A stretch of 64,000 nucleotides of DNA from the NCBI RefSeq assembly GCF_029581395.1, contig NZ_CP121113.1, positions 2,910,001 through 2,974,000 on the forward strand. Reading direction: 5' to 3'. The translations under genes were made by a program, and so were the position numbers. The DNA is from Roseinatronobacter sp. S2 (GTDB taxonomy: Bacteria > Pseudomonadota > Alphaproteobacteria > Rhodobacterales > Rhodobacteraceae). Of the stretch, positions 23,900-41,419 are shown piece after piece. Below the pieces are notes generated by a model. The model saw nothing but the letters and a program-made list of their open reading frames with translations, was not told the origin of the DNA and did not search any database. Numbering within the stretch: the first letter of the stretch is position 1; every line of letters begins with the position of its first letter.

Positions 23900-23924
23900 G
23901 GAACCCTAAGGGAAGTTTCGCGTT
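23900..23924 (+). promoter_or_regulatory. EcfG-type promoter of csbD
   Basis: GGAAC (23900-23904), 16-bp spacer, CGTT (23921-23924): the established consensus for EcfG general stress sigma factors. Predicted start about 35 bp before the csbD ATG. Confidence 0.8.
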
Positions 23925-23965
23925 CTATTCGCATGACCCAATTGCAACACGCACAGGAGTTTGAA

Positions 23966-24163
23966 ATGAACTGGGATATTGTAGAAGGTAAATGGAAGCA
24001 GTTTACAGGGTCCGCCAAGGAAAACTGGGGCAAGCTGACCGATGATGATCTGAATCAGGCTGCGGGCAAGCGAGACCAGTTGGTCGGCAAGATTCAGGAA
24101 AAATACGGCGTCGCCAAAGATGAGGCCGAAAAGCAGGTCGATGCTTGGTCATCCAAGCTGTGA
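23966..24163 (+). CDS. CsbD family stress protein
   Basis: A 65-residue hydrophilic protein with the CsbD pattern MNWDIVEGKWKQFTGSAKE then LTDDDLNQAAGKRDQLVGKIQEKYG. CsbD proteins are widespread general-stress markers of unclear molecular role. ATG 23966 follows CAGGAG; the longer frame upstream covers the promoter. It is the left-most member of the stress island. Confidence 0.93.
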   Translation: MNWDIVEGKWKQFTGSAKENWGKLTDDDLNQAAGKRDQLVGKIQEKYGVAKDEAEKQVDAWSSKL

Positions 24164-24170
24164 TTGGCGC

Positions 24171-24192
24171 AATCCCGCGCTATCGCGGGATT
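24171..24192 (+). terminator. Hairpin after csbD
   Basis: A 9-bp stem AATCCCGCG/CGCGGGATT with a 4-base loop, 8 bp after the csbD stop. The following T-run is weak, so read-through into the next two genes is possible. Confidence 0.55.
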
Positions 24193-24279
24193 TGACTAGT
24201 CGAAGCCAAATCACACTTTTTTCAATGAAATTTAAACCGGCGACGCAGCAAACACGCACGCGCCGGCAGGAGGCTTGAA

Positions 24280-24681
24280 ATGTCCAGACAACCCGAAGCG
24301 AAGCTGAAACAGGAAAGCAAGGAAACCGCCGCGAATGTGAAAAGACACGCAGATGCGGCGGCAGATGAAATATCTGATCTGGCCGATCTGACCTATGAGG
24401 AGTTGAAAGAGCAACTCGCCCTTGTCAAATCCGACCTTGCAGAGTTGACCGAGGCCACCAAACAGGCCGGATACGCGAAAGCCCGACAGGCCAAGGCAAG
24501 GGCGCGCCGCACCGGCCGCCGCGCGGTCAGCATGGCCGAGGATGGCTATGACTATGCCACCGACCAGATTGATGAAGCGCTGGAAAGTGCTGAAACCTTC
24601 ACCAAAGAACGCCCTGCAATGGCGATGGGCATAGCTGCGGGCGCAGGGTTCCTGCTGGCACTGGCCCTGTCGCGCCGCTGA
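24280..24681 (+). CDS. DUF883 / ElaB-YqjD-like membrane-tail protein
   Basis: A 133-residue protein: a charged helical region (residues 1-110, Glu/Lys/Ala-rich, probable coiled coil) and a C-terminal hydrophobic anchor (MAMGIAAGAGFLLALALSRR). This is the layout of ElaB/YqjD/DUF883 proteins, of which YqjD can tether ribosomes to the membrane in stationary phase in E. coli. AGGAGG stands 5 bp before the ATG. It overlaps the next gene by one base (TGATG). Confidence 0.85.
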   Translation: MSRQPEAKLKQESKETAANVKRHADAAADEISDLADLTYEELKEQLALVKSDLAELTEATKQAGYAKARQAKARARRTGRRAVSMAEDGYDYATDQIDEALESAETFTKERPAMAMGIAAGAGFLLALALSRR

Positions 24682-25058
24682 TGTTGCAAACCGTTCACCA
24701 TATGAAACGCCAAGCCCAATGGCATGGCGGCAATGTCGCGCTGGCACTTGTTGCGGGCGCGATGTTTGCCGTGGGCATCGGGTTTATGGTGGCCGCCATC
24801 TGGATGATGCTTGCGCAACAGTTCTCGGCCTTGATTGCAACTTATGCAATCGGGTTGGTGTTTCTGGGGCTGTCAGGCATATTGCTGCTTGTAAAACGCC
24901 TGCGACGTGCGCCGCCAATCCCCAGCCTTGATGCACAGCTGCGGGCGAATGCGGCGCAGGGGCGGGCCTATCAGCCAAGGGGCGAATTTCCGGCCCTGCT
25001 TGAAGCGTTCCTGTTTGGCGTGAACACCTATGTTCAGGTGCGCAACCGCCGCCGCTAG
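24681..25058 (+). CDS. Phage holin superfamily / YqjE-like membrane protein
   Basis: A 125-residue protein with two membrane helices (about residues 19-42 and 50-71) and a basic C-terminal tail. In enterobacteria YqjD is followed by YqjE, annotated as a putative actinobacterial holin-X/holin III-like protein; size, topology and gene order here match that pair. Despite the family name there is no phage context. Translationally coupled to the DUF883 gene. Confidence 0.75.
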   Translation: MLQTVHHMKRQAQWHGGNVALALVAGAMFAVGIGFMVAAIWMMLAQQFSALIATYAIGLVFLGLSGILLLVKRLRRAPPIPSLDAQLRANAAQGRAYQPRGEFPALLEAFLFGVNTYVQVRNRRR

Positions 25059-25070
25059 GGCAATTTCAGG

Positions 25071-25158
25071 AAAAGTTGGCAGACTTTTTCGGTTCAAAAT
25101 TGCGACAAAACCGAAAGCTTAATGCGTTTCTGGCGATTCACCAAAAGCCGAAACGCTT
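25071..25158. repeat. 88-bp dispersed repeat, copy 1
   Basis: Matches 33343-33431 with 7 substitutions and one indel (about 91% identity). It contains two short hairpins: TTCGGTT/AACCGAA and GCGTTTC...GAAACGC. In the second copy one base pair of the latter becomes a G-T pair, so pairing is kept. It is non-coding in both copies (the indel shifts any frame). Located between the holin-like gene and the AI-2E family gene. Confidence 0.75.
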
Positions 25159-25357: not shown

Positions 25358-26521
25358 CTATTGCGGCGGGGCTGGCACGCGGGGCTGTGTGTCATCAGAC
25401 AGCAGGTTCGCAACCTTTGCTGCACCGGGGAACTGCTCCAGTATCACGCGCACCATCACCAGCAGGGGTACCGCGATAAGCATCCCCAGAAACGACCACA
25501 TCCATGCCCAGAATGCCACCGACAAAAACACCAGCACCCTGTTCATGCGCAAACGCCGCGCCAGCATATGCGGGGTTATCAACTGCCCTTCCAATGAGGT
25601 CAGCGTGAAATAGGCCAATGTCACCATCAGCACGCTTCGCAAATCATCAAACCACAGAATCGCAACCATGCTTGTCAGCACAACACCCGTCACAGCGCCC
25701 AGATAGGGAATGAAATTCAGCGTGAATGCCAGCACCGCAAACAGCAGCGGCACCGGCATTCCCAGCGCCCACATGGCCAAGCCCACACAAACCCCAAGCC
25801 CCGCATTAATAAAGGCAACGGTTCCAAGATACCCGCCAAGATCGTGTTCAATCTTGTGCAAGGTGTTGATTGCGATGCGCTTATCGGAAAACGCGCCAAA
25901 ACTCTGGACAATTTTCAGATAGATCAGCTCGCTTGAGGACAGCAGGAAAAACAGCAAGATCAACATGAACAGCACCTGCGCCACTTTTGCAGGGGCTTCT
26001 GCCAGATAGGTCAATGCACCGCTGGCCGTGGTCAGCAAGAAATCCGCACCGCCGCCATCATCCGCATCTTGCAGGGCTTCGGTCGCACGCAGATCGGGGA
26101 CAAAGCCCTGTTCGCTTTCGCCCAGCGTGTTCATCAGGTTTAGCATTGCGCCCTGTATGGCCGTCAAGCGCCGGGTGATATCACGGACAATATCGGGCAT
26201 ATTGTCGGCAAGCTGCATCACAGGGCCACTTAGCAGCACGAACACGGCGGCAATACCGGCCATCAGCCCCAGAACCAACCCTGCGGCAACCGGCGTGCCG
26301 GGCAAGCCAACCCCCAGCAGACGACGCTGCAAGGGCATGAACACGAAAAACAGCAATACCGCCGTGACAACCGGCAACAGAAAATCGCGCGCATAATGGA
26401 CCGCGCCCAGAACCAGAATAATGAAAATGCCCGTCAGCACCATAGATGCGCGCGGGCTGCCTTCCACCTTGGCAAGGGCCGGAACAGGGGCTTTGCCCGA
26501 CCGGCTGTGTGACAGGGGCAT
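25358..26521 (-). CDS. AI-2E family transporter (PerM/YdiK-like), first copy
   Basis: A 387-residue integral membrane protein with about eight helices in the AI-2E pattern: an N-terminal pair, a long extramembrane region (residues ~95-160), then LAFTLNFIPYLGAVTG near 267 and a final LRMNRVLVFLSVAFWAWMWSFLGMLIAVPLL. Members export autoinducer-2, act as Na+/H+ antiporters or are of unknown function. Start ATG 26519-26521 follows AAGAGGA. An exact EcfG-type promoter lies about 50 bp upstream, so stress-induced expression is predicted. Confidence 0.9.
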   Translation of the reverse strand: MPLSHSRSGKAPVPALAKVEGSPRASMVLTGIFIILVLGAVHYARDFLLPVVTAVLLFFVFMPLQRRLLGVGLPGTPVAAGLVLGLMAGIAAVFVLLSGPVMQLADNMPDIVRDITRRLTAIQGAMLNLMNTLGESEQGFVPDLRATEALQDADDGGGADFLLTTASGALTYLAEAPAKVAQVLFMLILLFFLLSSSELIYLKIVQSFGAFSDKRIAINTLHKIEHDLGGYLGTVAFINAGLGVCVGLAMWALGMPVPLLFAVLAFTLNFIPYLGAVTGVVLTSMVAILWFDDLRSVLMVTLAYFTLTSLEGQLITPHMLARRLRMNRVLVFLSVAFWAWMWSFLGMLIAVPLLVMVRVILEQFPGAAKVANLLSDDTQPRVPAPPQ

Positions 26522-26573: not shown

Positions 26574-26598
26574 AACGCGGGCCACGGCGCGCGGTTCC
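26574..26598 (-). promoter_or_regulatory. EcfG-type promoter of the first AI-2E family gene
   Basis: On the minus strand GGAAC (26594-26598), 16-bp spacer, CGTT (26574-26577). The predicted start is about 46 bp before the ATG. It is back to back with the rightward site at 26648. Confidence 0.75.
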
Positions 26599-26647
26599 CG
26601 AAATATGCAGGAAGCGGCGGAAATCAGCGCACCCCCCACCCCGACAC

Positions 26648-26672
26648 GGAACCCAAGGACCGGACATGCGTT
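26648..26672 (+). promoter_or_regulatory. EcfG-type promoter of the 90-residue membrane protein
   Basis: GGAAC (26648-26652), 16-bp spacer, CGTT (26669-26672). It would give a leader of about 120 bases before the ATG at 26800. Confidence 0.75.
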
Positions 26673-26799
26673 GATTATATGACAGGTCGCCACGCATGCG
26701 CGCAACAACGGGCGTGGCGCACCAAACACCGGACGGCATGGGGGCGAAACGATTGCCCGACCATAGGCCGCACCGGCCCTGAAAAGGAAAGGAACAGAA

Positions 26800-27072
26800 A
26801 TGAGTGCTCCTGACACAAATCTGAAAAAGCAGACATGGCGCCACCGCGGGCCACTTGTCGGCATGGCGCTGGCAGTCATTCTGGCAGTCGCGTTTCTGGG
26901 GTGGCTGCTGGTCAGAATGCTGGTGGTCGAACCCGAACAGCCAACACAAGCACCGGCTGAGCAAACGGAAAGTGACACTGGCATTCCGGCCGAAGGCACT
27001 GTAACCGGCCCGGCGAACGAGCCTGAGGACGCGCCCCAGATTATTGATGAACCGACCGTGCCCGCTGATTGA
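26800..27072 (+). CDS. Small single-pass membrane protein, function unknown
   Basis: 90 residues: a basic N-terminus, one membrane helix (about residues 21-43) and an acidic, Pro/Glu/Thr-rich tail of ~45 residues that would lie in the periplasm. AAGGAAAGGAA precedes the ATG. It sits between the two AI-2E family genes and has its own EcfG-type promoter and terminator. No family recognised. Confidence 0.75.
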   Translation: MSAPDTNLKKQTWRHRGPLVGMALAVILAVAFLGWLLVRMLVVEPEQPTQAPAEQTESDTGIPAEGTVTGPANEPEDAPQIIDEPTVPAD

Positions 27073-27160: not shown

Positions 27161-27163
27161 GTA

Positions 27164-28345: not shown

Positions 28346-28370
28346 GGAACCAATCGGAATTGGGCGCGTT
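28346..28370 (+). promoter_or_regulatory. EcfG-type promoter of a probable small RNA
   Basis: GGAAC (28346-28350), 16-bp spacer, CGTT (28367-28370), pointing rightwards into a region with no rightward gene but with a strong terminator about 100 bp on. Confidence 0.75.
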
Positions 28371-28376
28371 TTAGTA

Positions 28377-28477
28377 TTGTCCCTGTTGGGGCATTAGGCT
28401 TTTGTCCTGCCTGATGTCTTCCAGTCCCGACTTGCCCATCCTGTGGCCGATTGGCGTGCAGGATGGGCTTTTTCTTT
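28377..28477 (+). ncRNA. Candidate stress-induced small RNA (about 100 nt)
   Basis: The stretch is bounded by an exact EcfG-type promoter (28346-28370) and a strong intrinsic terminator (28434-28477), and holds no open frame with a ribosome site. Start is inferred as ~7 bases after the -10. The terminator hairpin would be the 3' domain; the 5' half includes CUGUUGGGG and CUUUUGUCCUGCC single-stranded candidates. EcfG-controlled small RNAs are known in alphaproteobacteria (for example GsrN in Caulobacter), but no sequence match is claimed. Confidence 0.55.
28434..28477 (+). terminator. Rho-independent terminator of the candidate small RNA
   Basis: A 10-bp stem GCCCATCCTG / CAGGATGGGC with an inner GCC/GGC stem, followed by TTTTTCTTT at 28469-28477. 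Confidence 0.85.
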
Positions 28478-28509
28478 GGCACCGGACCCGCCTGCTGCAC
28501 CATACCCCC

Positions 28510-28824
28510 CTAACAACTGGTGATCATCAGCACCGGAAACAGGGTAAATGCCGTAGCCCCCAGCCCGATCCATGCACCCGCGCGCGGCATATATTGCGAC
28601 AGCGCAGGCCCGGCAGGCAGCGCGCGCAACAGCACCACATGACCCAGCAGCCCCAGCACCCACACCGCAATCAACCCCATGCGCGCGCCCGTGCCCAGCG
28701 TTTCGGGGGCCAGACTTTCCGCAGGTGGCTGACCCGCGCAGGCGACCCCGTGCAGCGCATAAACTGCGACGAATACGACGGCCCATAGCGTCGGGCCGGC
28801 CAGTGACAGCGCAACCCACTTCAT
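28510..28824 (-). CDS. Small membrane protein at the end of the cytochrome oxidase operon
   Basis: 104 residues with three membrane helices (about residues 5-22, 45-66 and 80-100). ATG 28822-28824 overlaps the ctaD stop by 4 bases. No family is recognised; position suggests an accessory or assembly subunit of the oxidase. Confidence 0.7.
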   Translation of the reverse strand: MKWVALSLAGPTLWAVVFVAVYALHGVACAGQPPAESLAPETLGTGARMGLIAVWVLGLLGHVVLLRALPAGPALSQYMPRAGAWIGLGATAFTLFPVLMITSC

Positions 28825-31379
28825 GCGACACCTGCCTGCACCACAAAAACTGCGGCAGTGATTATGGCCGTGATCGCGGTAAAGGCCTGCCAGCTCGCCC
28901 ATGCAGGGATCGCACCAACACCCGTGTGCGGCGAAATTTCGCCACGCCGGAACTGGTCGGCGGTGAACGCGGCCATCGCACCCGCCACCACCACATGCAA
29001 CCCGACATAGCCCGCCATGGCCGCACGCAGCGCATCACGCGCATGGGCGCGCGGGTCGTCCAGTTGCGTGACCAGCCATGCCAGCACGACAAGCGCCACA
29101 AGGTTGCACACCAACCCTGCCCATGACGCCCAGCGCCCTGCCCGCCCCATGGTCAACAACCGCGCGGCACCTGCCCCCAACGCAAGTGCACCGGCAATGC
29201 CCGCCAGACCAAGGGCCACTGAACTGTTTTGCGCCAGTGCGGGCGGTGGCGGCGGCCCTTGGGTGACGACCGACAAGAACCCCACCCCGAACAGCAGGGA
29301 TGCAAACAACGCGCCATCCGCCACCAGAAGCGCATGCACCCCGCTTTGCGCCAGTGTCGGGCGCGTTGCGCGGTGATGCACCGGCACCGTTGTCCCCGGT
29401 GCAATCGTGACCGCGCGCAAATCCCCCAAGGGCGCCATGCCGCGCACCCATAGCCAGACCAGCACTGCAACCGGCAGCAACGCAACAGCCGCCAGCGCAT
29501 ACAGGCTGGCCAGCATCAACAGCACAAACACCGCGATCGACCCCGCCAGCACCAAAGGCAGCGCCGTGTTGCCCGGTAGCACTGCCACATGACAGGGCCG
29601 CGCAGTGCCCGCGCTGGTGACAAGCACTTCACGCCGCCCGCGCGGCGCACCGGCCAGCGCACCGATCCCGCGCGCCAGCGCCTGAATGACATCGCGCGCA
29701 GGCCCGCCCTGATGGCGCACCAACGGAAGCGAGGCAAAGTTGTAATTGGGTGACGGCACCGGCATCGCCCAGTCCAGCGTCGGCGCGCGCCACGGGTCGC
29801 GGCGCGCGCGTTTGCCAAGGCTGGCCTGCAAGATCAGATCCAGTGCAAACATGGCAAAACCGATGGTCAGCACGAACCCGAAGATCGACGATGTCAGGTT
29901 CAGCGCCATCCATTCGGGATTCTCGGGATACACATCAATCCGGCGCGGCATGCCCAGCAGACCAGTCAGGTGCATGATGAAAAACGTGCCATGGAACCCC
30001 AGAAGAATGACCCAGAACGCGGCCTCTCCCAGCCCGTTGACGCGTGCCTTGCCGGTAATCAGCGGCATCCAGTATGTGGCCGCCGCCATCATGGGAAACA
30101 CAAACCCGCCGATCAGCACATAATGCAGATGCGCCGTCACAAATGCCGTGTCATGCGCCTGCCAGTTGAAGGGCACGATGGCCAGCATCACACCTGTCAG
30201 CCCCCCCATCACGAAGGTCAGGAAAAACCCCAGAATATGCAGCATGGGCAAATGCAGTTCCGGCCGCCCCTTCCACATGGTGCCGATCCACGCAAAAACC
30301 TGCACCGCTGTGGGCACCGCCACCAGCACCGATGCGGCGGAAAAGAACGCCAGCGCCATATGCGGAATGCCCACCGTGAACATGTGGTGCACCCATAACC
30401 CAAAGGACAGGAACACCAGCCCCAGAATGGCGGCCGCAATCGCGCCATAGCCCAGTATGGGCGTGCGGCACATGACCGGGATAATCGTGGACATGGCCCC
30501 CGCTGCGGGCAGAAAGATGATATACACTTCCGGATGGCCAAACAGCCAGAACAGGTGTTGCCACAACAGCGGGTCCCCCCCGCGGGCCACATCGAAAAAC
30601 GGCCAGTCAAAGGCGCGTTCCACCTCCAACAGCACCGACCCCGCAATCAGCGGCGGGAAGCCCACCAGCATCATGGCACTGGTGCCCAGCATATACCACG
30701 CAAACAGCGGCATTTCGGTCAGCTTCATCCCCGGCGCGCGCTGGCGCAGGATGGTGACGGTAATTTCCACCGCCGCCGCGATGGCCGAAATTTCCACGAA
30801 GGTCACCCCCAGCAGCCACACATCGGCATTTATGCCGGGGCTGTGCGTGGCATCGGACAGCGGCGTATACATGAACCAGCCGTCGCGCGGGGCCACACCG
30901 AACAAAAGCGCCGTCAGCATGATCAGCCCGCCAAACAGATAGCACCAATACCCCAGCGCGGTCAGGCGCGGGAATGCCATATCGCGCGTGCCCAGAAGTT
31001 TCGGCAACAGCCAGATGCCCAGCCCTTCCAGCATGGGAATGGCGAACAGGAACATCATGATGCTGCCATGCATGGTGAATATCTGGTTATACAGTTCCGT
31101 ATCCAGAAACGCGCCCTGCGGGGTGGCAAGCTGCGCGCGGATCAGCATCGACAAGATACCGCCGATGGCAAAGAACACAAACGCCGTCGCCATAAAACGC
31201 AGGCCCAGCGTTGTGTGACTAACCGCCGTCACCTGCCCCCATAACCCGCGATCATTGGCCCAGACGCGCGCCAATTCGCGGTGCAACCGCAAGGCGCGTT
31301 GCGGTGCATTGGCGGGAATATCTGCCAGTGCGGTGCCGTCAGACAGCGGGGGCAGGTTTGGGTTCGGGGTGTCGGTCAT
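28821..31379 (-). CDS. ctaD: Cytochrome c oxidase subunit I fused to a subunit III-like region
   Basis: An 852-residue heme-copper oxidase catalytic subunit. Residues ~55-540 are subunit I with all metal ligands visible: low-spin heme His in TMHGSIMMF, the CuB site with GHPEVYIIFLP (His and cross-linked Tyr), VHHMF (two CuB His), and HLHYVLIGG (heme a3 and heme a His). After ~600 come two extra helices and from ~680 about four-five helices resembling a shortened subunit III. Such I/III fusions occur in alternative (CoxMNOP-like and caa3-like) oxidases. It overlaps coxB by 4 bases. Likely a second, stress- or condition-specific terminal oxidase, as the operon lacks ctaB and a separate ctaE. 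Confidence 0.93.
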   Translation of the reverse strand: MTDTPNPNLPPLSDGTALADIPANAPQRALRLHRELARVWANDRGLWGQVTAVSHTTLGLRFMATAFVFFAIGGILSMLIRAQLATPQGAFLDTELYNQIFTMHGSIMMFLFAIPMLEGLGIWLLPKLLGTRDMAFPRLTALGYWCYLFGGLIMLTALLFGVAPRDGWFMYTPLSDATHSPGINADVWLLGVTFVEISAIAAAVEITVTILRQRAPGMKLTEMPLFAWYMLGTSAMMLVGFPPLIAGSVLLEVERAFDWPFFDVARGGDPLLWQHLFWLFGHPEVYIIFLPAAGAMSTIIPVMCRTPILGYGAIAAAILGLVFLSFGLWVHHMFTVGIPHMALAFFSAASVLVAVPTAVQVFAWIGTMWKGRPELHLPMLHILGFFLTFVMGGLTGVMLAIVPFNWQAHDTAFVTAHLHYVLIGGFVFPMMAAATYWMPLITGKARVNGLGEAAFWVILLGFHGTFFIMHLTGLLGMPRRIDVYPENPEWMALNLTSSIFGFVLTIGFAMFALDLILQASLGKRARRDPWRAPTLDWAMPVPSPNYNFASLPLVRHQGGPARDVIQALARGIGALAGAPRGRREVLVTSAGTARPCHVAVLPGNTALPLVLAGSIAVFVLLMLASLYALAAVALLPVAVLVWLWVRGMAPLGDLRAVTIAPGTTVPVHHRATRPTLAQSGVHALLVADGALFASLLFGVGFLSVVTQGPPPPPALAQNSSVALGLAGIAGALALGAGAARLLTMGRAGRWASWAGLVCNLVALVVLAWLVTQLDDPRAHARDALRAAMAGYVGLHVVVAGAMAAFTADQFRRGEISPHTGVGAIPAWASWQAFTAITAIITAAVFVVQAGVA

Positions 31380-32044
31380 GGCCTGTCCTGCGTCGTTTCG
31401 GGGTCGGCGGGGGGCCAGTCATCATGCGCGATCACCTCAAAGCGCATGCCCGCATGCCCCAGCCCGCAAAATTCTGCACACAGTCCGTCAAACCGGCCCG
31501 CATTGTCGGCCTGCACGCGCAGGCGGTTCACACGGCCGGGAATGGCATCCATCTTGCCGCCAAGGCGCGGCACCCAGAACGAATGGATCACATCTTGTGA
31601 CGTAATCAGAATATCCACCGGCTGACCTGCGGGAATATGCAGCGTGCCTTCACCTTCGACCAACTGGCCGTCGACGCCATCATGGGCGAATTCCCAGCCC
31701 CATTGAAACGCGTGCGCACGCACAGTGACTGCGCCATCATCACGCGGCAGAATGCGTTCGCCCACCCATAGCCCTGCGGCCAGAACCGTGCTTAGAACCG
31801 CCAGCGAGAACCACAGGCCCATACCATATACCCAGCGTCTTTGCGTGGTTTCGCGGGGCCGCCCGAATGCGACCGCAAGCAGCACCAGCACAAAGACAGT
31901 GATCAGCCCCGCGCCTGCGAACATGCCCCACCACAGCCATGCAATATCGCGCGCGATATGCCCGCCGGGGTCCAGTGTGGACAGCGGCCCCGAACACCCG
32001 GCCAACGCCACGGGCGTGGCCCATATCGCATACCGCGCCATCAT
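31376..32044 (-). CDS. coxB: Cytochrome c oxidase subunit II with CuA site
   Basis: A 222-residue protein starting MM at 32044/32041. It has a lipoprotein-type leader (VALAGCSG, Cys 18), two membrane helices (about 35-57 and 73-95) and a C-terminal cupredoxin domain with the full CuA set: His in HSFWVP, CAEFCGLGH and Met in HAGM. Presence of CuA marks it as a cytochrome c oxidase, not a quinol oxidase; there is no fused cytochrome c domain. It overlaps both neighbours. Confidence 0.94.
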   Translation of the reverse strand: MMARYAIWATPVALAGCSGPLSTLDPGGHIARDIAWLWWGMFAGAGLITVFVLVLLAVAFGRPRETTQRRWVYGMGLWFSLAVLSTVLAAGLWVGERILPRDDGAVTVRAHAFQWGWEFAHDGVDGQLVEGEGTLHIPAGQPVDILITSQDVIHSFWVPRLGGKMDAIPGRVNRLRVQADNAGRFDGLCAEFCGLGHAGMRFEVIAHDDWPPADPETTQDRP

Positions 32045-33266: not shown

Positions 33267-33298
33267 CACACTCCAGTGTTGATCATGTCTTGTGATCC

Positions 33299-33324
33299 AA
33301 CGCAGCGCGGGGCGTCGCGGTTCC
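33299..33324 (-). promoter_or_regulatory. EcfG-type promoter of the cytochrome oxidase operon
   Basis: On the minus strand GGAAC (33320-33324), 17-bp spacer, CGTT (33299-33302). Predicted start ~24 bp before the ctaG ATG. Confidence 0.75.
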
Positions 33325-33342: not shown

Positions 33343-33431
33343 AAAAGTTGACAGACTTTCTCGGTTCGAAATAGCGACAAAACCGAAAGCTTTATGCGTT
33401 TCTGGCGATTCAACAAAAAGCCGGAACGCTT
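33343..33431. repeat. 88-bp dispersed repeat, copy 2
   Basis: Second copy of the element at 25071-25158, same orientation, about 91% identical, with the two hairpins conserved. It lies between the oxidase operon promoter and the terminator of the 25-residue peptide gene. Confidence 0.75.
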
Positions 33432-33500: not shown

Positions 33501-33578
33501 TCAGAACACACCGAACAGAAACAACAGAATAATCAACGGAATCGGAACGCCGATCGCCCACAATAATATTCCACGCAT
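33501..33578 (-). CDS. 25-residue hydrophobic membrane peptide
   Basis: MRGILLWAIGVPIPLIILLF plus LFGVF, a single membrane helix with a Gly-Val-Pro-Ile-Pro kink. The ribosome site AAAGGAAG is well placed and an exact EcfG-type promoter lies 50-75 bp upstream, so the gene is credible despite its size. Short stress-linked peptides with an IGVPIP core occur in other proteobacteria as far as I recall; function unknown. Confidence 0.8.
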   Translation of the reverse strand: MRGILLWAIGVPIPLIILLFLFGVF

Positions 33579-33627: not shown

Positions 33628-33652
33628 AACGGGCAAGGCAACCCAAGGTTCC
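33628..33652 (-). promoter_or_regulatory. EcfG-type promoter of the 25-residue peptide
   Basis: On the minus strand GGAAC (33648-33652), 16-bp spacer, CGTT (33628-33631). Predicted start ~40 bp before the ATG. Confidence 0.8.
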
Positions 33653-33754: not shown

Positions 33755-34699
33755 TTACCCTTCGTATTCAGGCAGGCTTTCCAGTTGTTCTTGCGTCATC
33801 GAAACGTCAACACGCACGTCGCCGTCTTCATCGTTCCACATGATTTCGACGTCATCGACTTCAAGGGCGATGGTGTGGCTCGCAAGTCCAAGAAACCCGC
33901 CCACATCCATGACAAGATGGGTCATGGTGCCATCGTCGGCCATAACAACATCATCGACCGTGCCGATATTGTCGCCTTCGCCACCATAAACATCGGCGCC
34001 CAGCAGGTTTTCAGCGGTGCGGTCTTGCTCGGTCATTTCGCTGTAACCGTCCGTTGCGGGGGCTGCATCAGGTGTCGCTGTCTGTTCGGTCATGGCATCG
34101 CCTTGATCCTGCATGCCCATATCTGCACCGGCAGACGCATCATCATAGGCCTGCGCCTCATAGCCGATTGTCAGTTGCTCTTCGTCCCATTCCGGCAGGG
34201 CTTCAAGCTGGTCCTGGCTCATGGCGGCCACGACAAAGAAATCGGACAGCTCTTCCGGCGCGGTGTCATCGGCCACGAAATACAGATCGCTGATATCAAC
34301 CATCACAGTGCGTGCGCCCAGACCCAGGAAACCGCCGACATCAATCAAGACGCCGCGAACTTCGCCGTCCTTGGTCATGACAATGTCCTGAATATCGCCG
34401 ACATTTTCCCACGCATCGCGTTCGGACGCAAAGGCATCACTGCTTTCCCAGCGCATGCTGGTACGATCCCATGCGCTGGCGTCTTCGGCAGCGCGGTCCT
34501 GTGTCAGGGTGCGGGTTTGTTCCGTGTCCAGCGTATACAGGTTCTTGCCGGTGAAATCAGATGACAGGAATGCCGGAATGAACTGGCTGGACTCTGTCAT
34601 GGCGGCATCATCACCATTCATTGTGGTGTCGCTTGTCTGTGCAACTGCCCCCATCGAGGTTACAGCTACAATGGCGGTGGTAAGCATAAGCTTGTTCAT
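33755..34699 (-). CDS. Exported protein with two PRC-barrel-like domains
   Basis: A 314-residue acidic protein with a signal peptide (cleavage near AVAQ, residue 21). Two PRC-barrel-like units are visible, each with a 'V(D)DVVM..DG..(T/R)......DVGGFLGLG..T' core: residues ~95-145 and ~235-285. They are joined by a Gln/Asp/Ala-rich linker. ATG 34697-34699 follows AGGAGAG. Exported PRC-barrel proteins of this kind are common in alphaproteobacteria and often stress-related; molecular role unknown. Confidence 0.85.
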   Translation of the reverse strand: MNKLMLTTAIVAVTSMGAVAQTSDTTMNGDDAAMTESSQFIPAFLSSDFTGKNLYTLDTEQTRTLTQDRAAEDASAWDRTSMRWESSDAFASERDAWENVGDIQDIVMTKDGEVRGVLIDVGGFLGLGARTVMVDISDLYFVADDTAPEELSDFFVVAAMSQDQLEALPEWDEEQLTIGYEAQAYDDASAGADMGMQDQGDAMTEQTATPDAAPATDGYSEMTEQDRTAENLLGADVYGGEGDNIGTVDDVVMADDGTMTHLVMDVGGFLGLASHTIALEVDDVEIMWNDEDGDVRVDVSMTQEQLESLPEYEG

Positions 34700-34749: not shown

Positions 34750-34774
34750 AACAGTCCGTTGGCAGCAAAGTTCC
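34750..34774 (-). promoter_or_regulatory. Near-consensus EcfG-type promoter of the PRC-barrel gene
   Basis: On the minus strand GGAAC (34770-34774), 16-bp spacer, TGTT (34750-34753), one mismatch in the -10. About 50 bp before the ATG. Confidence 0.5.
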
Positions 34775-34897: not shown

Positions 34898-35119
34898 TCA
34901 GCGCCGTTCGCGCGACCGTTCCCGCGCGGGTTTGTCACCCACATCGTCCAACGCGCCTGACGGTGCCTGATCAAGATGCTCAATCGGGTGCATACCCAGA
35001 TCCGCAGTCTGATCCGTAGGGTATGCCTGGGTTTTATCTGCCCCTTCGGCCTTCAGCTTGTGCGCTTTCTTGGTATAGTCTTGCTGGGTCTTGTTCGGGG
35101 TATTTTCAGGGGTGCTCAT
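34898..35119 (-). CDS. 73-residue hydrophilic protein, function unknown
   Basis: A Lys/Asp/Gln-rich, probably unstructured protein without membrane segments. The start MM lies at 35122/35119; the second ATG has better spacing to AAAGGG. Its N-terminal part (QQDYTKKAHKLKAEGADKTQ) repeats basic residues, and it ends in an Arg/Glu tail. An EcfG-type promoter lies upstream. No family recognised. Confidence 0.7.
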   Translation of the reverse strand: MSTPENTPNKTQQDYTKKAHKLKAEGADKTQAYPTDQTADLGMHPIEHLDQAPSGALDDVGDKPARERSRERR

Positions 35120-35161: not shown

Positions 35162-35187
35162 AACGCCTGCCAGCATGAAACGGTTCC
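35162..35187 (-). promoter_or_regulatory. EcfG-type promoter of the 73-residue protein
   Basis: On the minus strand GGAAC (35183-35187), 17-bp spacer, CGTT (35162-35165); predicted start ~35 bp before the ATG. Confidence 0.75.
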
Positions 35188-35298: not shown

Positions 35299-35490
35299 TC
35301 AGCCTTTCTTGGGACCGGCAATGAACCAGATGATCAGGCCGACAACGGGAAACAGCAGAACAAGCAATATCCACAAGACCTTTTGCCCCTGACTGGACCC
35401 TGACCCCAAGATTGACACAGCCGCCCAGATGACCAGCGCCAGATGGATAATACCCAGAAAACCTGTGAAATTCGCATTCATTGAATTCAT
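35299..35490 (-). CDS. PLDc_N domain membrane protein
   Basis: 63 residues, two membrane helices (about 9-28 and 38-57) and the closing FPVVGLIIWFIAGPKKG. This is the stand-alone 'phospholipase D nuclease N-terminal' domain, which has no catalytic residues of its own. An exact EcfG-type promoter precedes it by ~30 bp. Confidence 0.88.
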   Translation of the reverse strand: MNSMNANFTGFLGIIHLALVIWAAVSILGSGSSQGQKVLWILLVLLFPVVGLIIWFIAGPKKG

Positions 35491-35518: not shown

Positions 35519-35543
35519 AACGCCTTCATGTGCATTCGGTTCC
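35519..35543 (-). promoter_or_regulatory. EcfG-type promoter of the PLDc_N gene
   Basis: On the minus strand GGAAC (35539-35543), 16-bp spacer, CGTT (35519-35522). Confidence 0.8.
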
Positions 35544-35661: not shown

Positions 35662-37062
35662 TCAGACCAGTTCAAAAATTTCATAATCGATATGGCGGTC
35701 GTGAACCCCAAGCCGGTGCAGATCGCCGCGCAAGGACGCAATCATCGGGGCAGGACCACATAAAAGATGCGGCCAGTCGCGCGTGTCAGCCGCAAGATGG
35801 CGTGTCAGAATGTCGAAATCAATCTGGCCATGCTCGCCGTCCCAATCTTCGGGCGGGTCATCCAGAACATGCACCAGCGTCAGGTTCAGCCGCTTGCGCA
35901 AAGCGTCCAGTTCATCGCGAAACGCCATATTGTCCCATGTGGGGTTCCCATAGATCAAGATGATCGGGCGCAGGTCATTGCGCGCATCCAGCGCATGCAG
36001 GTTTGACAGGATGGGGGTAATGCCCACCCCGCCGGCAATCATGACAAACCCCTGCGCCCCCGCCATCCGGTCCACGGAAAACGCGCCATATGGTCCATCC
36101 ACATAGGCACGCGCGCCGATTTCAGTTTGCGCCAGTTCGGTGCTGTGATCCCCCAGCGCCTTGATCGCAAAAGACAGGTTTGGGCCCTTTTCCGGCGCGG
36201 TGGAAATGGTGAACGGGTGTTCAATCAGTCCATAAGGGGACCGGTCGATTTTCAGCCAGGCGAATTGTCCCGGTTTCCAGCGTGTCAGGGCGCGGCCTTC
36301 GGGGGCAAGTTCCAACCGGCGCACGCCGCCGCCTTCATCGTGATTGGCCACAACGCGCCACGGGTTGCGCGACTGCATCCATGGACGGATCAGCCGCGCA
36401 AACACCAACAGCCCGACCCAGCCCAGCGTTGCCCCAAGCCACAATGCACGCTTTTCGGCTGTGTCCGTCAGGTTACCCACGCCCAGAACATGCGCAATCG
36501 CGGCCACAAACCCCGTGATCGCCAGCGCCAGATGCAGCTTGCGCCACCATTCATAGGACAGCCCCAGCAGCTTGCGCCATTGCGATGTGATGACAAGGCC
36601 AGCAAAACACAGCAGCGACACGCGGCCTGCGGTCAACTCCCACCGCGCCTGAAGCGGGTTCAACTCGCCAAGTGCGGGTTGATGAAAGACATAGAGCACC
36701 GCAAAATGCGCCCCCATCAATGCCAGCGCGCCCCAGCTAAGGTAACGGTGTGTCAGATAGACAATATCGGCCCCGAACGGATGCGTAATCCAGCGCAGCC
36801 GCCCCGTCAGCGCGAACTGCAAGGCAATCATCGCCAGTGCGCCAAACCCCAGCCCCATGCTGAAATCCCATGTCAGGCCGCCGGATGGCACGGCCTCGCC
36901 CACGAATACGATCACTGCAAACGGCAGGCACAGCGCCAGAAGGCCCAGTGCCAGCACCGCACAGGCATGTGCCATCACAACCAAGCGCCGATCATGACGC
37001 GGCTGATACCGGCGCGCAACTGTGGCGTTTGCGCTGCCAGTTCGGGGGAAAATTCTGTTCAT
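35662..37062 (-). CDS. Ferric-reductase-like transmembrane protein with ferredoxin-reductase domain
   Basis: A 466-residue flavocytochrome-like protein. Residues ~30-220 hold six membrane helices with haem-ligand histidines (RYLSWGALALMGAHF, WWRKLHLALAITGFVAAIAHV). Residues ~235-460 form an FAD/NAD(P) module: HPFTIST (FAD), AGGVGITPILSNL (NAD(P)) and LLCGPAPMI near the end. It moves electrons from NAD(P)H across the membrane to an external acceptor, possibly Fe(III) or oxygen. ATG 37062 is preferred over GTG 37080. It lies 48 bp after the DUF2231 gene, in one operon. Confidence 0.85.
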   Translation of the reverse strand: MNRIFPRTGSANATVARRYQPRHDRRLVVMAHACAVLALGLLALCLPFAVIVFVGEAVPSGGLTWDFSMGLGFGALAMIALQFALTGRLRWITHPFGADIVYLTHRYLSWGALALMGAHFAVLYVFHQPALGELNPLQARWELTAGRVSLLCFAGLVITSQWRKLLGLSYEWWRKLHLALAITGFVAAIAHVLGVGNLTDTAEKRALWLGATLGWVGLLVFARLIRPWMQSRNPWRVVANHDEGGGVRRLELAPEGRALTRWKPGQFAWLKIDRSPYGLIEHPFTISTAPEKGPNLSFAIKALGDHSTELAQTEIGARAYVDGPYGAFSVDRMAGAQGFVMIAGGVGITPILSNLHALDARNDLRPIILIYGNPTWDNMAFRDELDALRKRLNLTLVHVLDDPPEDWDGEHGQIDFDILTRHLAADTRDWPHLLCGPAPMIASLRGDLHRLGVHDRHIDYEIFELV

Positions 37063-37109
37063 CCTTATCCAACGTGGCACCAGCGGTGCCGGTTCCCTGT
37101 GCTGCGAAA

Positions 37110-37713: not shown

Positions 37714-39444
37714 TCAGGGCAAAGTTGCGGTCTGCGATACCTGTTGTTCGGCGACACGCAGACAAACCTGCCAACCGTGGCACCCGTCCCGCGCGCTGGG
37801 GCCGATCTCGATATCGCCGTGAATCTGAAGCGCAAATGCGGTCATCAACTCCCGTCCCAACCCATCGCCCGGCAACTGCTCCAGCGGTTCCGACACGGAA
37901 TTCCACACGCTAAGTTCGGCAAACCCGCCCTTGCTGCGCAGGCTGATATCCAGCTGGCTGGTTCCACCCTGCGCGCCGGACGCATATTTCAGCGCGTTGG
38001 TCAGTGCTTCGGCAAATAACAATGATGCCGGAATGATCTTGTCATGGGCCAGATCCACTGACTCAAACTGTTTCGTCACGGTCAGATCAGCCGCGTCCGC
38101 TTTTGCCAGCGACAGCGTCTCTTGTAAAATGCTGTCAAAGAAACTGGCCGCATAGCGTTCGGCAATGCGGTCTTGTTCGTAAAGCGTGCGGTGAATAGTC
38201 GCCAGCGACCGCACACGCGCCTGAACACCTTTCAGGATCTGGCGCGCATCGGGGTCTTGCAAGCGGCGCATCTGCAAATTCAGAATAGACCCGATAAGCT
38301 GTAGGTTGTTTTTCACACGGTGGTGAATTTCCTTCAGCAGAATGGTCTTTTCTGCAAGCGCTTCTTCGCGTTCGCGTTCGTCACGACGGATCAGCAACGC
38401 CATCTTGGAAAAGGTGGAATCAATCTCGCGCAATTCGGTCGGCGCCTCATCGGGCAGGCGCTGAAATTCCGCACGGTTGCCCAAAGCAAAACGCCGCAAC
38501 TGCGAATTCAGCCGCTTCAGATGGCGCACAACCATGTAATCAACCGCGAACATAACCACGGCCAATGATGCAAACCACATCAGGACAGGAAAGCTTAACC
38601 GCCACAGGTTCATCGCAGCCGCAAACGGCAACTGGTCGCTGGACCAGCTTCCCAAGGCATAAAGCTGGCCGGGAATAACCTCTGCTATGGTGAATGTGCG
38701 GCTTTCGCCGTTCTCGCTGATGCCCCGCAAGACACCGTTGCGCGCATCCAGCAAGGAATTCAGCGTAGCGCCATCAGGCAGCATATCCACGGATTCGGCA
38801 TTATCCGCACTGGTCAGCGTGTCGCCGGACCGGTTGACCAGATATGTCATGCGCAGCCCGGTCTGCTGGTCCGGTTCTGTGGCAATCAAGGTGAATGTAT
38901 GCCGCGAAATCGAGATGCTGACATATCCCAGAAAATCGCCATCATCATAAACCGGCCTGTTGGCCAGCACGACGGGCCGCCCCGTGATCGCCCCTGATGG
39001 CTGAAAACTGAAAAAGCTGCGCGGGTTTTCCATATCCGCCTGCAAGGTCTCGGAATCGCTGAAATCCACCTCGTCACCCTGCGACACACAGCGCATCACA
39101 CCATCATGCGCAATGAAACCTGCGAAAGCATACAGACCGGTCGCATCGACAAATTCCCGCAAAAACCCTGAACATGCCGCAGTATCATCCAGACGGTCCA
39201 GCAACAGCGGCGTCAACCGGTGCGCCGACAACATTGCACTTTCCAGCAAACCCCGTTGTCCCGCAACCGCATCGGCAGTGCGCGAAACAAGCATCGCATC
39301 ATCCGACCGCGCCTGGTCGCGCAGCGACTGGTATTCGGAATAGATGGAAATCGCCCCCAAAGGTGCAAGCGCCAGCGTCATCAGAATCGCCAGACGGGTC
39401 GCCAGCTTGTCATTGAACTCGAACACTGCCAATGCTTGTTTCAA
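37714..39444 (-). CDS. HWE/HisKA_2-type sensor histidine kinase of the general stress response
   Basis: A 576-residue kinase with a membrane helix at ~17-37, a periplasmic sensor of ~240 residues (dCACHE-like), a second helix at ~285-308, a HAMP-like linker, then HisKA_2 with phospho-acceptor LLKEIHHRVKNNLQ near residue 370 and a C-terminal ATPase with FAEALTNALKYA and DGLGREL. HisKA_2/HWE kinases of this kind (PhyK, LovK, PakF) phosphorylate PhyR. It begins 13 bp after ecfG and is probably the third gene of the nepR-ecfG operon. Confidence 0.9.
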   Translation of the reverse strand: MKQALAVFEFNDKLATRLAILMTLALAPLGAISIYSEYQSLRDQARSDDAMLVSRTADAVAGQRGLLESAMLSAHRLTPLLLDRLDDTAACSGFLREFVDATGLYAFAGFIAHDGVMRCVSQGDEVDFSDSETLQADMENPRSFFSFQPSGAITGRPVVLANRPVYDDGDFLGYVSISISRHTFTLIATEPDQQTGLRMTYLVNRSGDTLTSADNAESVDMLPDGATLNSLLDARNGVLRGISENGESRTFTIAEVIPGQLYALGSWSSDQLPFAAAMNLWRLSFPVLMWFASLAVVMFAVDYMVVRHLKRLNSQLRRFALGNRAEFQRLPDEAPTELREIDSTFSKMALLIRRDEREREEALAEKTILLKEIHHRVKNNLQLIGSILNLQMRRLQDPDARQILKGVQARVRSLATIHRTLYEQDRIAERYAASFFDSILQETLSLAKADAADLTVTKQFESVDLAHDKIIPASLLFAEALTNALKYASGAQGGTSQLDISLRSKGGFAELSVWNSVSEPLEQLPGDGLGRELMTAFALQIHGDIEIGPSARDGCHGWQVCLRVAEQQVSQTATLP

Positions 39445-39457: not shown

Positions 39458-40033
39458 TCAAAATCCGTTGGGTGCGCCAGCCATCACCATCGCAACAGAT
39501 TTATCTGTTGAATCAGGAAGTTCACCTTTTTCAAGATGCAGAATTTCCACCAATGCCTTGCGCGCACGGTTGGCGCGGCTTTTTATCGTGCCGGGGGCGC
39601 AACCACAGGTTTGCGCGGCTTCCTCGATGGAAAACCCCATGGCACCGACAAGAATAAGCGCCTCTCGCTGCTCGACCGGCAGAAGTTTCATCGCTGCGTT
39701 CAACTCTTGCAGGGCAAGGCGGCCGTCATGGTCGGGCTTGGACGCCATACGCGCGGCGAACACCCCTTCCCCATCGGACACTTCACGCGATTGCTTGCGG
39801 CGTTTTGACAAATAGGTGTTGCGCAAAATCGTGAACAGCCAGGCACGCAGGTTCGTGCCCTCGTTATATTGCGAAAACTTGCTCCATGCTTTCAGCACAG
39901 TTTCCTGCACCAGATCATCCGCGCCCGACACATCCCCTGTCAGGCCACGCGCGAAGGCGCGCAGGGCTGGCAAATGGGTGACAATTTCATCGCGCGGATC
40001 AATAAATTCTTGTTGTTCTGGGGTATCGTTCAT
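39458..40033 (-). CDS. ecfG: EcfG-type general stress sigma factor
   Basis: A 191-residue ECF sigma factor (ECF15 type). Sigma-2 spans ~15-85 (RAFARGLTGDVSGADDLVQETVLKAW and the WLFTILRN -10 recognition part) and sigma-4 ~110-165 (LPVEQREALILVGAMGFSIEEAAQTCGCAPGTIKSRANRAR). It directs RNA polymerase to GGAAC-N16/17-CGTT promoters. It overlaps nepR by 3-4 bases (ATGA), the normal order for this system. Confidence 0.96.
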   Translation of the reverse strand: MNDTPEQQEFIDPRDEIVTHLPALRAFARGLTGDVSGADDLVQETVLKAWSKFSQYNEGTNLRAWLFTILRNTYLSKRRKQSREVSDGEGVFAARMASKPDHDGRLALQELNAAMKLLPVEQREALILVGAMGFSIEEAAQTCGCAPGTIKSRANRARKALVEILHLEKGELPDSTDKSVAMVMAGAPNGF

Positions 40034-40218
40034 TTTTCCCCCGCCTTCTTTTGCGCATCCTGTTGTCGAAGCGCTTCCAGAAGATCAGTCAGGGATTTTG
40101 GCAATTCCTCAGAAGCCGCGTCGCTGTAAAGCCGCTTGAGGTTTTCATCAATCTGCTTGGAAACAGCCGGTGCGATGTCCTTTCTGTTTCCATTTCGTTT
40201 CCCACTCATAATCGACAT
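40030..40218 (-). CDS. nepR: Anti-sigma factor NepR
   Basis: 62 residues from ATG 40216-40218 (AAAGG four bases upstream); a second ATG at 40209 gives 59. The helix core ISKQIDENLKRLYSDAASEELPKSLTDLLEAL-like segment (here VSKQIDENLKRLY...) is the NepR signature. It binds EcfG, or PhyR when that is phosphorylated (partner switching). Confidence 0.95.
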   Translation of the reverse strand: MSIMSGKRNGNRKDIAPAVSKQIDENLKRLYSDAASEELPKSLTDLLEALRQQDAQKKAGEK

Positions 40219-40297
40219 ACAGCCTTTTGCTCCACAAATTTCACTCTGGCAGCTTCCGATCTGCTGCGCAACCATCGCAGCAATCGTGACAACCTTT

Positions 40298-40329
40298 GGA
40301 ACCAAACGCCTTGCACTGCGTTCGGTTCC
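40298..40329. promoter_or_regulatory. Overlapping divergent EcfG-type promoters for phyR and nepR-ecfG
   Basis: Rightward: GGAAC 40298-40302, 16-bp spacer, CGTT 40319-40322, for phyR. Leftward: GGAAC 40325-40329, 16-bp spacer, CGTT 40305-40308, for nepR. The two promoters occupy the same 32 bp, each -35 lying outside the other's -10, so polymerase can bind in only one direction at a time. Confidence 0.88.
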
Positions 40330-40412
40330 AAAGAATGTTTGTTTTTCATGTGTGCCTGAAGCGGGCCGAAAGTAGGGAAGTTCAAAGAATGCCGGAAGTT
40401 CAAGGAGAGACC

Positions 40413-41207
40413 ATGTCTATGTCGATGCGTATTGCGAAGGAACTGCCCTATTTGCGCCGGTATGCGCGGGCACTGACGGGCAGCCAGCAAACCGGCGACA
40501 GATATGCCGCCGCCACATTGGAAGCCATACTTGAAGACAGATCCCTGCTTGATAACGAAATCGCACCCAGGCTGGCGCTGTTCCGGGCATTTCATACCGT
40601 GTGGCAGACAACCGGCGCGCCGGTCAGCGAAGAGGTCGGCACCGGAACCGAGGCCCGCGCACAATCCCTGCTTGCCAACCTGACCACCAACACCCGAGAG
40701 GCGCTGTTGCTCCGCTCGCTTGAGGAGTTCAACTACGCTGACATCGCGCAGGTCATTCAGGTCACCGAGGATGAGGCCCGCGAACTGGTGTCGATTGCCT
40801 ATACCGAAATGTCGCGTTCGGTGCAGGGACGCATCCAGATTATCGAAGACGAGCCGCTGATTGCGCTGGATATCAAAAGCATTGTCACCGAGATGGGCCA
40901 TGACGTCACAGGGATTGCGCGCACCCATAAAGAAGCAGTCGCACTGGGCCAGAAGACACGCCCTGATCTTATTCTTGCCGACATTCACCTTGCAGACGAT
41001 TCCTCAGGGGTGGAAGCGGTCGCCGAACTGCTGCGCGACAACGCAGACATTCCGGTGATTTTCATCACCGCCTATCCCGAACGCCTGCTGACCGGCGAAA
41101 AGCCGGAGCCTGCCTTCCTGATCACCAAACCGTTCGAGGAAGAGCAGGTTCGCTCCGCAGTGTCACAGGCGATGTTCTTTGCATCCACAAAAACGCTAAA
41201 CGCCTGA
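40413..41207 (+). CDS. phyR: General stress response regulator PhyR
   Basis: A 264-residue anti-anti-sigma factor. Residues ~1-130 are an EcfG-like (sigma-like) domain: ELPYLRRYARALTGS and NTREALLLRSLEEFNYADIAQVI. Residues ~138-255 are a receiver with IIEDEPLIALD, the phosphorylated Asp in LILADIHLADDSSG and Lys in LITKPFEEE. Phosphorylation frees the sigma-like domain to bind NepR and release EcfG. ATG 40413 follows AGGAGAG. Confidence 0.96.
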   Translation: MSMSMRIAKELPYLRRYARALTGSQQTGDRYAAATLEAILEDRSLLDNEIAPRLALFRAFHTVWQTTGAPVSEEVGTGTEARAQSLLANLTTNTREALLLRSLEEFNYADIAQVIQVTEDEARELVSIAYTEMSRSVQGRIQIIEDEPLIALDIKSIVTEMGHDVTGIARTHKEAVALGQKTRPDLILADIHLADDSSGVEAVAELLRDNADIPVIFITAYPERLLTGEKPEPAFLITKPFEEEQVRSAVSQAMFFASTKTLNA

Positions 41208-41215
41208 ACCAGATC

Positions 41216-41248
41216 GTCGGCAAGCCCGAATTGCAACGGTTTGCCGAC
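41216..41248 (+). terminator. Hairpin after phyR
   Basis: An 8-bp stem GTCGGCAA / TTGCCGAC nine bases after the phyR stop. The U-run is weak. The rest of the gap to 41394 is AT-rich with a short CGTGTCAGACACG palindrome and no gene. Confidence 0.5.
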
Positions 41249-41394
41249 AGTTTCACCAAACTGAAAATGCAATTAAAGCGTCAGTTCAATCAACCAAAGA
41301 AAACACTTCTTTTCAGCTGAATATTCCTGAAAAATAACTCATCCATTTTAATTCAGATATTCACTATGTAAACATTTCGTGTCAGACACGAATT

Positions 41395-41419
41395 GGAACC
41401 AACAGCCCCGTCATCCGTT
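41395..41419 (+). promoter_or_regulatory. EcfG-type promoter of the DUF1328 gene
   Basis: GGAAC (41395-41399), 16-bp spacer, CGTT (41416-41419); predicted start ~42 bp before the ATG. Confidence 0.82.

Follow-up and report, generated by a model that had tools for sequence, protein, structure and literature searches.

A general-stress locus with its predicted targets alongside

The stretch of DNA analysed here (the window) comprises 64,000 nucleotides of the Roseinatronobacter sp. S2 genome. Between its positions 23900 and 41419 lies a group of genes, called the island below, that includes phyR, nepR, ecfG and a sensor kinase gene as well as many genes with other predicted functions, preceded by short sites of the type used by the sigma factor EcfG. 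One of these sites faces a candidate small RNA (sRNA), and the two that face phyR and nepR-ecfG are interlocked in a single palindrome. Positions of all features are given in Table 1.

Judged by its sequence, the island holds every core component of a general-stress locus of the PhyR-NepR-EcfG type, and a regulon adjoins it. The PhyR protein combines sigma-like and receiver domains, nepR and ecfG overlap by a few bases in one operon adjoining phyR, and predicted promoters stand before regulators and targets alike. The site itself, GGAAC-N16-CGTT, is the motif of EcfG1 in Rhizobium etli (PMC3892343). The locus shares its core proteins, its motif, the sites before phyR and nepR-ecfG and the adjoining kinase gene with the alphaproteobacterial PhyR-NepR-EcfG systems (extracytoplasmic function, or ECF, group ECF15); it differs from them in a target density at the high end and in the interlocking of the phyR and nepR promoters. 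An earlier reading of the DNA (the original prediction) had placed the sigma factor, its partner-switch proteins, its kinase and many targets in one island; Pfam domains, the sites and conservation in relatives bear this out, and most of its gene names were confirmed by Pfam.

The window contains 12 exact copies of the pattern GGAAC-N16/17-CGTT, every one of them within the island, while dinucleotide shuffles of the window contain 0.80 sites on average and 4 at most. The original prediction had listed 11 of these, all of which are present, and had overlooked the one before the ferric-reductase-like gene; the one-mismatch site it described before a PRC-barrel gene was also found. All 12 exact sites point toward a start codon 8-127 nt away or toward the sRNA, and in all 12 a C follows GGAAC. 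The original prediction had further proposed comparing site density inside and outside the island over the whole genome (4,445,845 bp in 6 contigs, the window being part of the 3.48-Mb contig C1). Run as a count of exact patterns, this comparison gives 76 sites, 12 in the island and 64 in the remaining genome, although the island makes up just 0.39% of the sequence (binomial P ~3e-16); no other stretch of 17.52 kb has more than 2. The extended motif GGAACC is found at least 31 times genome-wide, including 12 times in the island. Because the forward motif is rarer in the genome than its reversed control (76 versus 234), the reversed control cannot serve as a base rate. The genome background of 0.25 sites per 17.5 kb agrees with the figure of about 0.3 originally expected by chance.

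Conservation of the sites was assessed in 12 congeners and in three named loci labelled Pararhodobacter, Roseicyclus and Loktanella (the last probably a congener, with 80% PhyR identity); one genome, G012, was excluded as too similar. A site was counted if it lay within 250 nt upstream on the same strand. Matches with identity below 35% (45-50% for the AI-2E and PRC genes) or coverage below 40% were left out, as were siteless genes with less than 60 nt of upstream sequence. When a genome had several matches the site-bearing one was kept, for target and other genes alike, and in several relatives one site was counted twice because the 25-residue peptide gene shares it with the ctaG-like gene that follows. 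Counted in this way, the 12 promoter-bearing genes of the island give 102 orthologue cases, of which 76 have an exact site, 22 a one-mismatch site and 4 none (98/102 with a site), versus 3 exact and 10 one-mismatch sites in 101 cases (13/101) for 11 other island genes. From species to species the genes change their order and orientation; thus, the sites travel with their genes. The conservation of gene order, which the original prediction had wanted checked, does not hold, but the genes do keep their sites. Going by this pattern, the sites of the island behave as promoters, and we treat them as predicted promoters in what follows.

The interlocked predicted promoters of phyR and nepR-ecfG

The original prediction correctly placed sites upstream of both phyR and nepR-ecfG; what it missed is that they are interlocked. 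The two sites overlap by 18 bp and together span 32 bp with the layout GGAAC-NN-AACG-N10-CGTT-NN-GTTCC, so that each -35 element is 2 bp (1-3 bp in relatives) from the -10 element of the opposite promoter. With promoters overlapping on both strands, the palindrome is a pseudo-symmetric element.

Searches for the palindrome used an 18-base pattern and allowed core lengths of 6-12. A scan of 385 genomes from the class, 5 of them Rhodobacteraceae, returned two exact matches: the window genome and G241, in which the palindrome (L204, G241:C17:42086-42117) lies beside genes for a receiver-only response regulator and an SMP-30/gluconolactonase-like protein, not beside phyR and nepR. Within the family, 394 genomes from 393 genera were scanned. 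Exact matches occur at 65 places in 64 genomes from 64 genera, all with cores of 10 or 11 bp, and the reversed control has 0. All 64 of these genomes are PhyR-positive, as compared to 189 of 394 in the family overall. In each of the 30 family loci fetched in addition to the window, phyR is on one side of the palindrome and nepR-ecfG on the other.

Of the 125 PhyR-positive genomes lacking the exact pattern, we took the 60 whose PhyR is most similar to that of the window, which is not a random sample. The overlap is present with no mismatch at a slightly different spacing in 7 of them, with one mismatch in 33 and with two in 13 (53/60 with at most 2 of 18); shuffled sequences gave 0/60. The mismatches in this class fall mainly on the first base of CGTT (49 of 59). 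Exact and near matches together extend over 117 genera of one family (64 and 53, respectively). Pairs with at most two mismatches were also counted at other offsets: 13/60 at -4 to -1, 4 at +1 to +4, 1 at +6 to +9 and none at -14 to -11 or -19 to -16; some of these pairs can be produced by the palindrome itself. None of 71 PhyR loci outside the family (defined by record titles and PhyR identity of at most 55%) has the overlap with two or fewer mismatches; in one of them, L147, a pair overlaps at offset -2.

In the genus, 18 of 19 PhyR-positive genomes carry the palindrome. When 17 of the 32-bp sequences are aligned, every promoter base has 2 bits of information. At the two ends of the core the values are 1.0 and 1.7 bits, in keeping with the extended GCGTT seen at other sites; of the eight positions between them, one has 0.5 bit and the others about 0.1. 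Selection acts on the two promoters and on little else.

The draft genome G013 (L072, L034) contains PhyR and EcfG loci twice over, and an interlocked promoter pair accompanies each of them; this could be a real duplication or a mixed assembly. In another genome (L065 of G021, 6415-8268) the phyR match starts at residue 22, the stretch tried contains a stop, and about 1 kb separates phyR from the palindrome, as if an insertion had occurred.

We found no report of an interlocked phyR/nepR promoter in a literature search that left subscription journals mostly outside. If it works as proposed below, it would be, to our knowledge, the first dedicated bidirectional promoter of an ECF sigma factor.

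A candidate small RNA and the other predicted targets

The candidate sRNA directly abuts an exact EcfG site. A covariance model (R1) was built from six genomes of the genus with the promoter left out and used to search 37 genomes, scoring in each at most 105 of about 1,000 candidates; one further match, L170, came from a locus search. There are 15 matches of at least 31.8 bits, 9 of them outside the model-building set. All 15 directly abut an EcfG site (10 exact, 5 one-mismatch), and none of six weaker matches that were inspected has one. These matches are spread over 13 of the 19 PhyR-positive genomes, and the 18 PhyR-negative genomes contribute none. Among them is a second copy in the window genome, at contig C3 39211-39313(-), downstream of a phospholipase-D-like gene (Pfam PLDc_2) that itself has an exact site about 200 nt upstream.

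All 8 pairs of the first stem vary on both sides among the 15 sequences. The covariation score is 0.42; sliding the partners gives no more than 0.096 and shuffles average 0.157, in an alignment that was fitted to the model and so favours the stem; 13% of the cells of this stem are unpaired.

No Rfam family match overlaps the sRNA, and R1 has no match in 80 named PhyR loci, including the 71 outside the family. A second model, R2, run on the 394 family genomes with 9 candidates scored per genome, gave 8 weak matches besides the window genome. One, in another genus (L296, G567:C1:533574-533667; 33.9 bits), folds into two main hairpins and has an exact EcfG site 33 nt upstream; the other 7 lack a site. 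The idea of sRNA homologues outside the genus was set aside. A further locus (L203, G035:C347:7216-7314) has two stem-loops, each exposing CCTCCTCC-type loops, and no EcfG site just upstream; these stem-loops resemble those of the CcsR/cuckoo sRNAs.

The closest described counterparts are GsrN of Caulobacter, which has an EcfG-type promoter and a 5' C-rich loop, with relatives usually located by the stress locus and homologues in Caulobacteraceae and Rhizobiales (PMC5869019), and ReC64, an EcfG-dependent RNA that has been mapped at the Rhizobium etli stress locus (PMC3892343). The candidate has the same features: an EcfG-type promoter immediately upstream, a C-rich loop near the 5' end, as seen in folds and alignments, and a position at the stress locus. 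The likeness to GsrN is one of described build, and the candidate has a copy on a second replicon and a covarying stem of its own. It belongs to a structured family that resembles GsrN in build and, by analogy, it probably regulates mRNAs as GsrN does. A literature search with subscription journals mostly outside it found no report of a GsrN-like RNA in Rhodobacteraceae.

Table 1. Features of the island, in order along the window (both ends included)
Feature	Position	Strand	Basis or conservation
csbD EcfG promoter	23900..23924	+	Exact site; site in 10/10 orthologues, 8 exact
csbD	23966..24163	+	Pfam CsbD, 3.7e-22
yqjD-like and yqjE-like membrane genes	24280..25058	+	DUF883_C and holin-type matches below Pfam cut-off; adjoin csbD in several relatives
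AI-2E family transporter gene 1	25358..26521	-	Pfam, 6.4e-43
EcfG promoter of AI-2E gene 1	26574..26598	-	Exact site; 7/7 orthologues, 6 exact
EcfG promoter of 90-residue membrane protein gene	26648..26672	+	Exact site; 9/9 orthologues exact
90-residue protein gene	26800..27072	+	Single hydrophobic stretch
sRNA EcfG promoter	28346..28370	+	Exact site, abuts sRNA
EcfG-dependent sRNA (predicted)	28371..28478	+	C-rich loop on stem 28390-28397/28411-28418; linker rich in C and U; intrinsic-terminator-like stem 28434-28443/28459-28468, T run
Cytochrome oxidase operon (CtaG-like, UPF0093-like, COX2, COX1, 130-residue protein)	28510..33269	-	Pfam; 130-residue protein without Pfam match
EcfG promoter of cytochrome oxidase operon	33299..33324	-	Exact site; 9/9 ctaG-like orthologues exact, 4/9 at 188-231 nt
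25-residue hydrophobic peptide gene	33501..33578	-	Identity 73-100% in relatives
EcfG promoter of 25-residue peptide gene	33628..33652	-	Exact site; 6/6 orthologues exact
Double PRC-barrel protein gene	33755..34699	-	Pfam PRC, 3.1e-15, two stretches
One-mismatch EcfG site of PRC-barrel gene	34750..34774	-	Site in 6/6 orthologues: 2 exact, 4 one-mismatch
73-residue protein gene	34898..35119	-	
EcfG promoter of 73-residue protein gene	35162..35187	-	Exact site; 1/2 orthologues
PLDc_N gene	35299..35490	-	
EcfG promoter of PLDc_N gene	35519..35543	-	Exact site; 7/7 orthologues, 6 exact
Ferric-reductase-like transmembrane flavoprotein gene	35662..37062	-	Pfam Ferric_reduct, FAD_binding_8, NAD_binding_1
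EcfG promoter of ferric-reductase-like gene	37071..37096	-	Exact site; 8/10 orthologues, 4 exact
HisKA_2/HWE histidine kinase gene, Cache-like sensor	37714..39444	-	Pfam; Cache match just below cut-off
ecfG	39458..40033	-	Pfam sigma-70 regions 2 and 4
nepR	40030..40209	-	Pfam NepR, 3.9e-11
Interlocked palindromic bidirectional EcfG promoter (predicted)	40298..40329	both	+ site 40298-40322 to phyR; - site 40305-40329 to nepR-ecfG
phyR	40413..41207	+	Pfam PhyR_sigma2 (1.1e-25), PhyR_sigma-like, Response_reg; NCBIfam PhyR family, 354 bits (cut-off 240)
DUF1328 gene EcfG promoter	41395..41419	+	Exact site; 11/11 orthologues, 9 exact
DUF1328 gene and DUF2383 gene	41469..42183	+	Pfam

The remaining targets are diverse. 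Three of the products, of 25, 73 and 90 residues, have no Pfam or NCBIfam family match. The yqjD-like and yqjE-like genes are probably co-read with csbD; in G021, G020, G010 and Roseicyclus the yqjD gene has a site of its own. The COX1 gene (28821-31379) encodes 852 residues, with the COX1 domain at 58-503 and no Pfam match in the C-terminal 349 residues. The end of the -10 element before the ferric-reductase-like gene is only 8 nt from the assumed start codon; thus, the transcript may be near-leaderless, or the true start codon may lie further downstream.

In G021, G010 and G020 (L066/L067, L069 and L074, compared with window positions 26598-26800), two back-to-back EcfG sites stand beside the AI-2E gene and a third site about 1.6 kb further on, before the gene for the 90-residue protein. 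This spacing suggests an extra gene between the two in those genomes that is absent from the window genome. The island also contains two copies of a 92-nt intergenic repeat (25055-25146 and 33327-33418), which are 88% identical and 8.3 kb apart. A dipeptide ATP-binding cassette (ABC) transporter was considered as a part of the module and rejected, since there are only weak paralogue matches outside G012.

Clustering, inheritance and a proposed mechanism

How unusual is the clustering? The original prediction held that EcfG targets are usually scattered over the chromosome, which proves to be overstated. Counting 10 kb on each side of the PhyR locus where the contig allows, the 71 loci outside the family contain 249 exact sites in 1,397 kb, or 1.78 per 10 kb, while five control patterns in the same loci give 0.13-0.21 per 10 kb, so that the real motif is about 9-14 times denser; the gathering of targets beside phyR is therefore widespread. 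Rhizobial loci mostly carry 3-5 sites, and in Sphingomonas there are many with 1. On this scale the 8 sites of the window, over about 20.8 kb, come to about 3.8 per 10 kb and would place it about 7th beside the 80 loci; those denser include a Hyphomicrobium metagenome-assembled genome (MAG) and Maritalea porphyrae. It is rather likely, then, that the clustering as such is ordinary, the phyR locus attracting stress genes in many Alphaproteobacteria and the window being merely at the dense end. This accounts for the density but not for the palindrome, found almost only in the family, nor for the sRNA, and it is compatible with the island being a stress regulon.

The original prediction also proposed that the module could be inherited or move as a unit. 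Inheritance as a unit is supported: PhyR is present in 19 of 37 congeners, the 852-residue COX1 gene in 18/19 PhyR-positive versus 1/18 PhyR-negative ones (Fisher P 2e-8) and the ferric-reductase-like gene in 18/19 versus 2/18 (Fisher P 2e-7). The four genomes that are exceptions to this co-occurrence are 75-90% complete. PhyR-positive G016 carries these genes on a contig apart from phyR; their arrangement differs there and includes no exact site. In L161 (G014), L162 (G016) and L165 (C3) the cox operon is a variant that lacks exact EcfG sites and has the DUF2231 gene lying antisense among its genes; G014, one of the four exceptions, has it without PhyR.

Such largely block-wise presence and absence, together with varying chromosomal positions, would also be expected of a mobile genomic island that spreads the stress module between strains. 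The island lies beside the suf operon and abuts tRNA-Arg(CCG) here, and tRNA genes are frequent insertion points of islands; in G018, G021, G010 and G031 it lies elsewhere. Insertion at this tRNA gene was nevertheless rejected: of 9 congeners read, 8 have suf next to tRNA-Arg(CCG) (in G028 about 2.6 kb lies between them), and 4 of the 9 hold the island at another place. No second copy of the tRNA 3' end was found within the window, and a Pfam scan of 30 window proteins revealed no integrase; because neither was seen, mobility is unproven, and active movement of the module is not supported. In addition, the G+C content of the island (52-65% per 2 kb) overlaps the window range, and the reshuffled gene order is unlike one moving cassette. 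PhyR is 79-91% identical in 5 congeners, not far from the 84-89% of the chromosomal SufS; such values fit a locus inherited vertically since long ago, then lost as a block or rearranged. We consider a mobile island unlikely; from these comparisons, block loss and rearrangement seem more likely than recent transfer.

Another possibility is that a different ECF sigma factor uses the sites, such as the EcfG-like paralogue (43-45% identical) that does exist on the 613-kb contig C3. In Rhizobium etli, both EcfG paralogues recognise the phyR promoter (PMC3892343). However, G012 has the same sites with a single EcfG match at the threshold used, and the stretches read around the paralogous genes on C3 (L164, L165) contain no exact site, which makes this explanation quite improbable. 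That divergent second set consists of the EcfG-like gene, a PRC-barrel gene (28%), a cox operon with the DUF2231 gene antisense inside (L165) and yqjE-yqjD-csbD. Least probable of all is that the palindrome, a near-perfect inverted repeat with operator-like, fixed arm distance, serves as the operator of some dimeric transcription factor and resembles EcfG promoters only as a by-product. Each of its arms consists precisely of the -35 GGAAC and the -10 of the opposite promoter, set at the 16/17-bp spacing of other EcfG sites, and the other 10 exact island sites have no exact mirror partner. Without the palindrome, phyR and nepR would lack an exact EcfG site here, yet among the 71 outside loci 45 have one toward phyR within 300 nt; and the mismatches of inexact relatives gather mostly on a single -10 base, as described above.

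We regard it as highly probable that the locus as a whole is a general-stress island with packed targets, an sRNA and a mutually exclusive palindromic promoter. The HisKA_2/HWE sensor kinase, presumably the cognate one, would phosphorylate PhyR, PhyR would draw NepR off EcfG, and EcfG-RNA polymerase would then fire about 13 nearby promoters (12 exact, 1 degenerate), including those of phyR and nepR-ecfG, both from the one 32-bp palindrome. Since 32 bp is too short for two polymerases, these two promoters should be mutually exclusive; and since EcfG should drive both directions, each firing would give either the activator (phyR) or the inhibitor plus the sigma factor (nepR-ecfG) from one binding event. 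The ratio of PhyR to NepR-EcfG would thereby be tied, and positive self-feedback of EcfG would be damped as EcfG becomes plentiful.

Several observations weigh against this explanation. Among the 60 sampled genomes, 3 have three mismatches and 4 no overlap. PhyR-positive G029 lacks the palindrome, with phyR and ecfG on separate contigs and an exact site near each. The sRNA was not found in 6 of the 19 PhyR-positive congeners, including the complete G031 and G017; such absences are weak evidence because at most 105 of about 1,000 candidates were scored per genome. Finally, most bidirectional promoters of Escherichia coli, at their basal activity, were too weak for polymerases to compete (PMC12825309). 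Under stress, an EcfG promoter could be in an activated state, unlike the basal case.

The E. coli promoters, described by Warman, Grainger and colleagues, are also the nearest precedent, with the same kind of pseudo-symmetric element and divergent RNAs and a single orientation at once; there the polymerase competes for one orientation, and exclusion was argued (PMC12825309). They belong to the sigma-70 type and share a -10 element; the distance between their starts is commonly 10, 18 or 23 bp, and their basal activity is low (PMC12825309). The palindrome, in contrast, consists of two complete ECF promoters with -35 set against -10, has predicted starts about 31 bp apart and occurs family-wide at one locus.

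For inheritance, then, the reading of the island as a module is right; the more novel content is the widely found interlocked promoter and the sRNA family. That the stress response of Rhodobacteraceae contains a single-molecule direction switch in a palindrome of 32-33 bp, with a hard-wired ratio, limited feedback and noise, and, in at least one genus, an added post-transcriptional layer of GsrN-like RNA, is to us an evenly balanced prospect. Candidates for the output of the stress response in the genus are the sRNA family, the oxidase operon inherited along with PhyR and the conserved peptide of 25 residues. With the palindrome, it becomes a testable design question whether mutually exclusive firing sets the PhyR:NepR ratio and the noise of the response, and the palindrome offers a one-line sequence signature of the stress locus in a large family, one in which the response had looked marginal in Rhodobacter sphaeroides.

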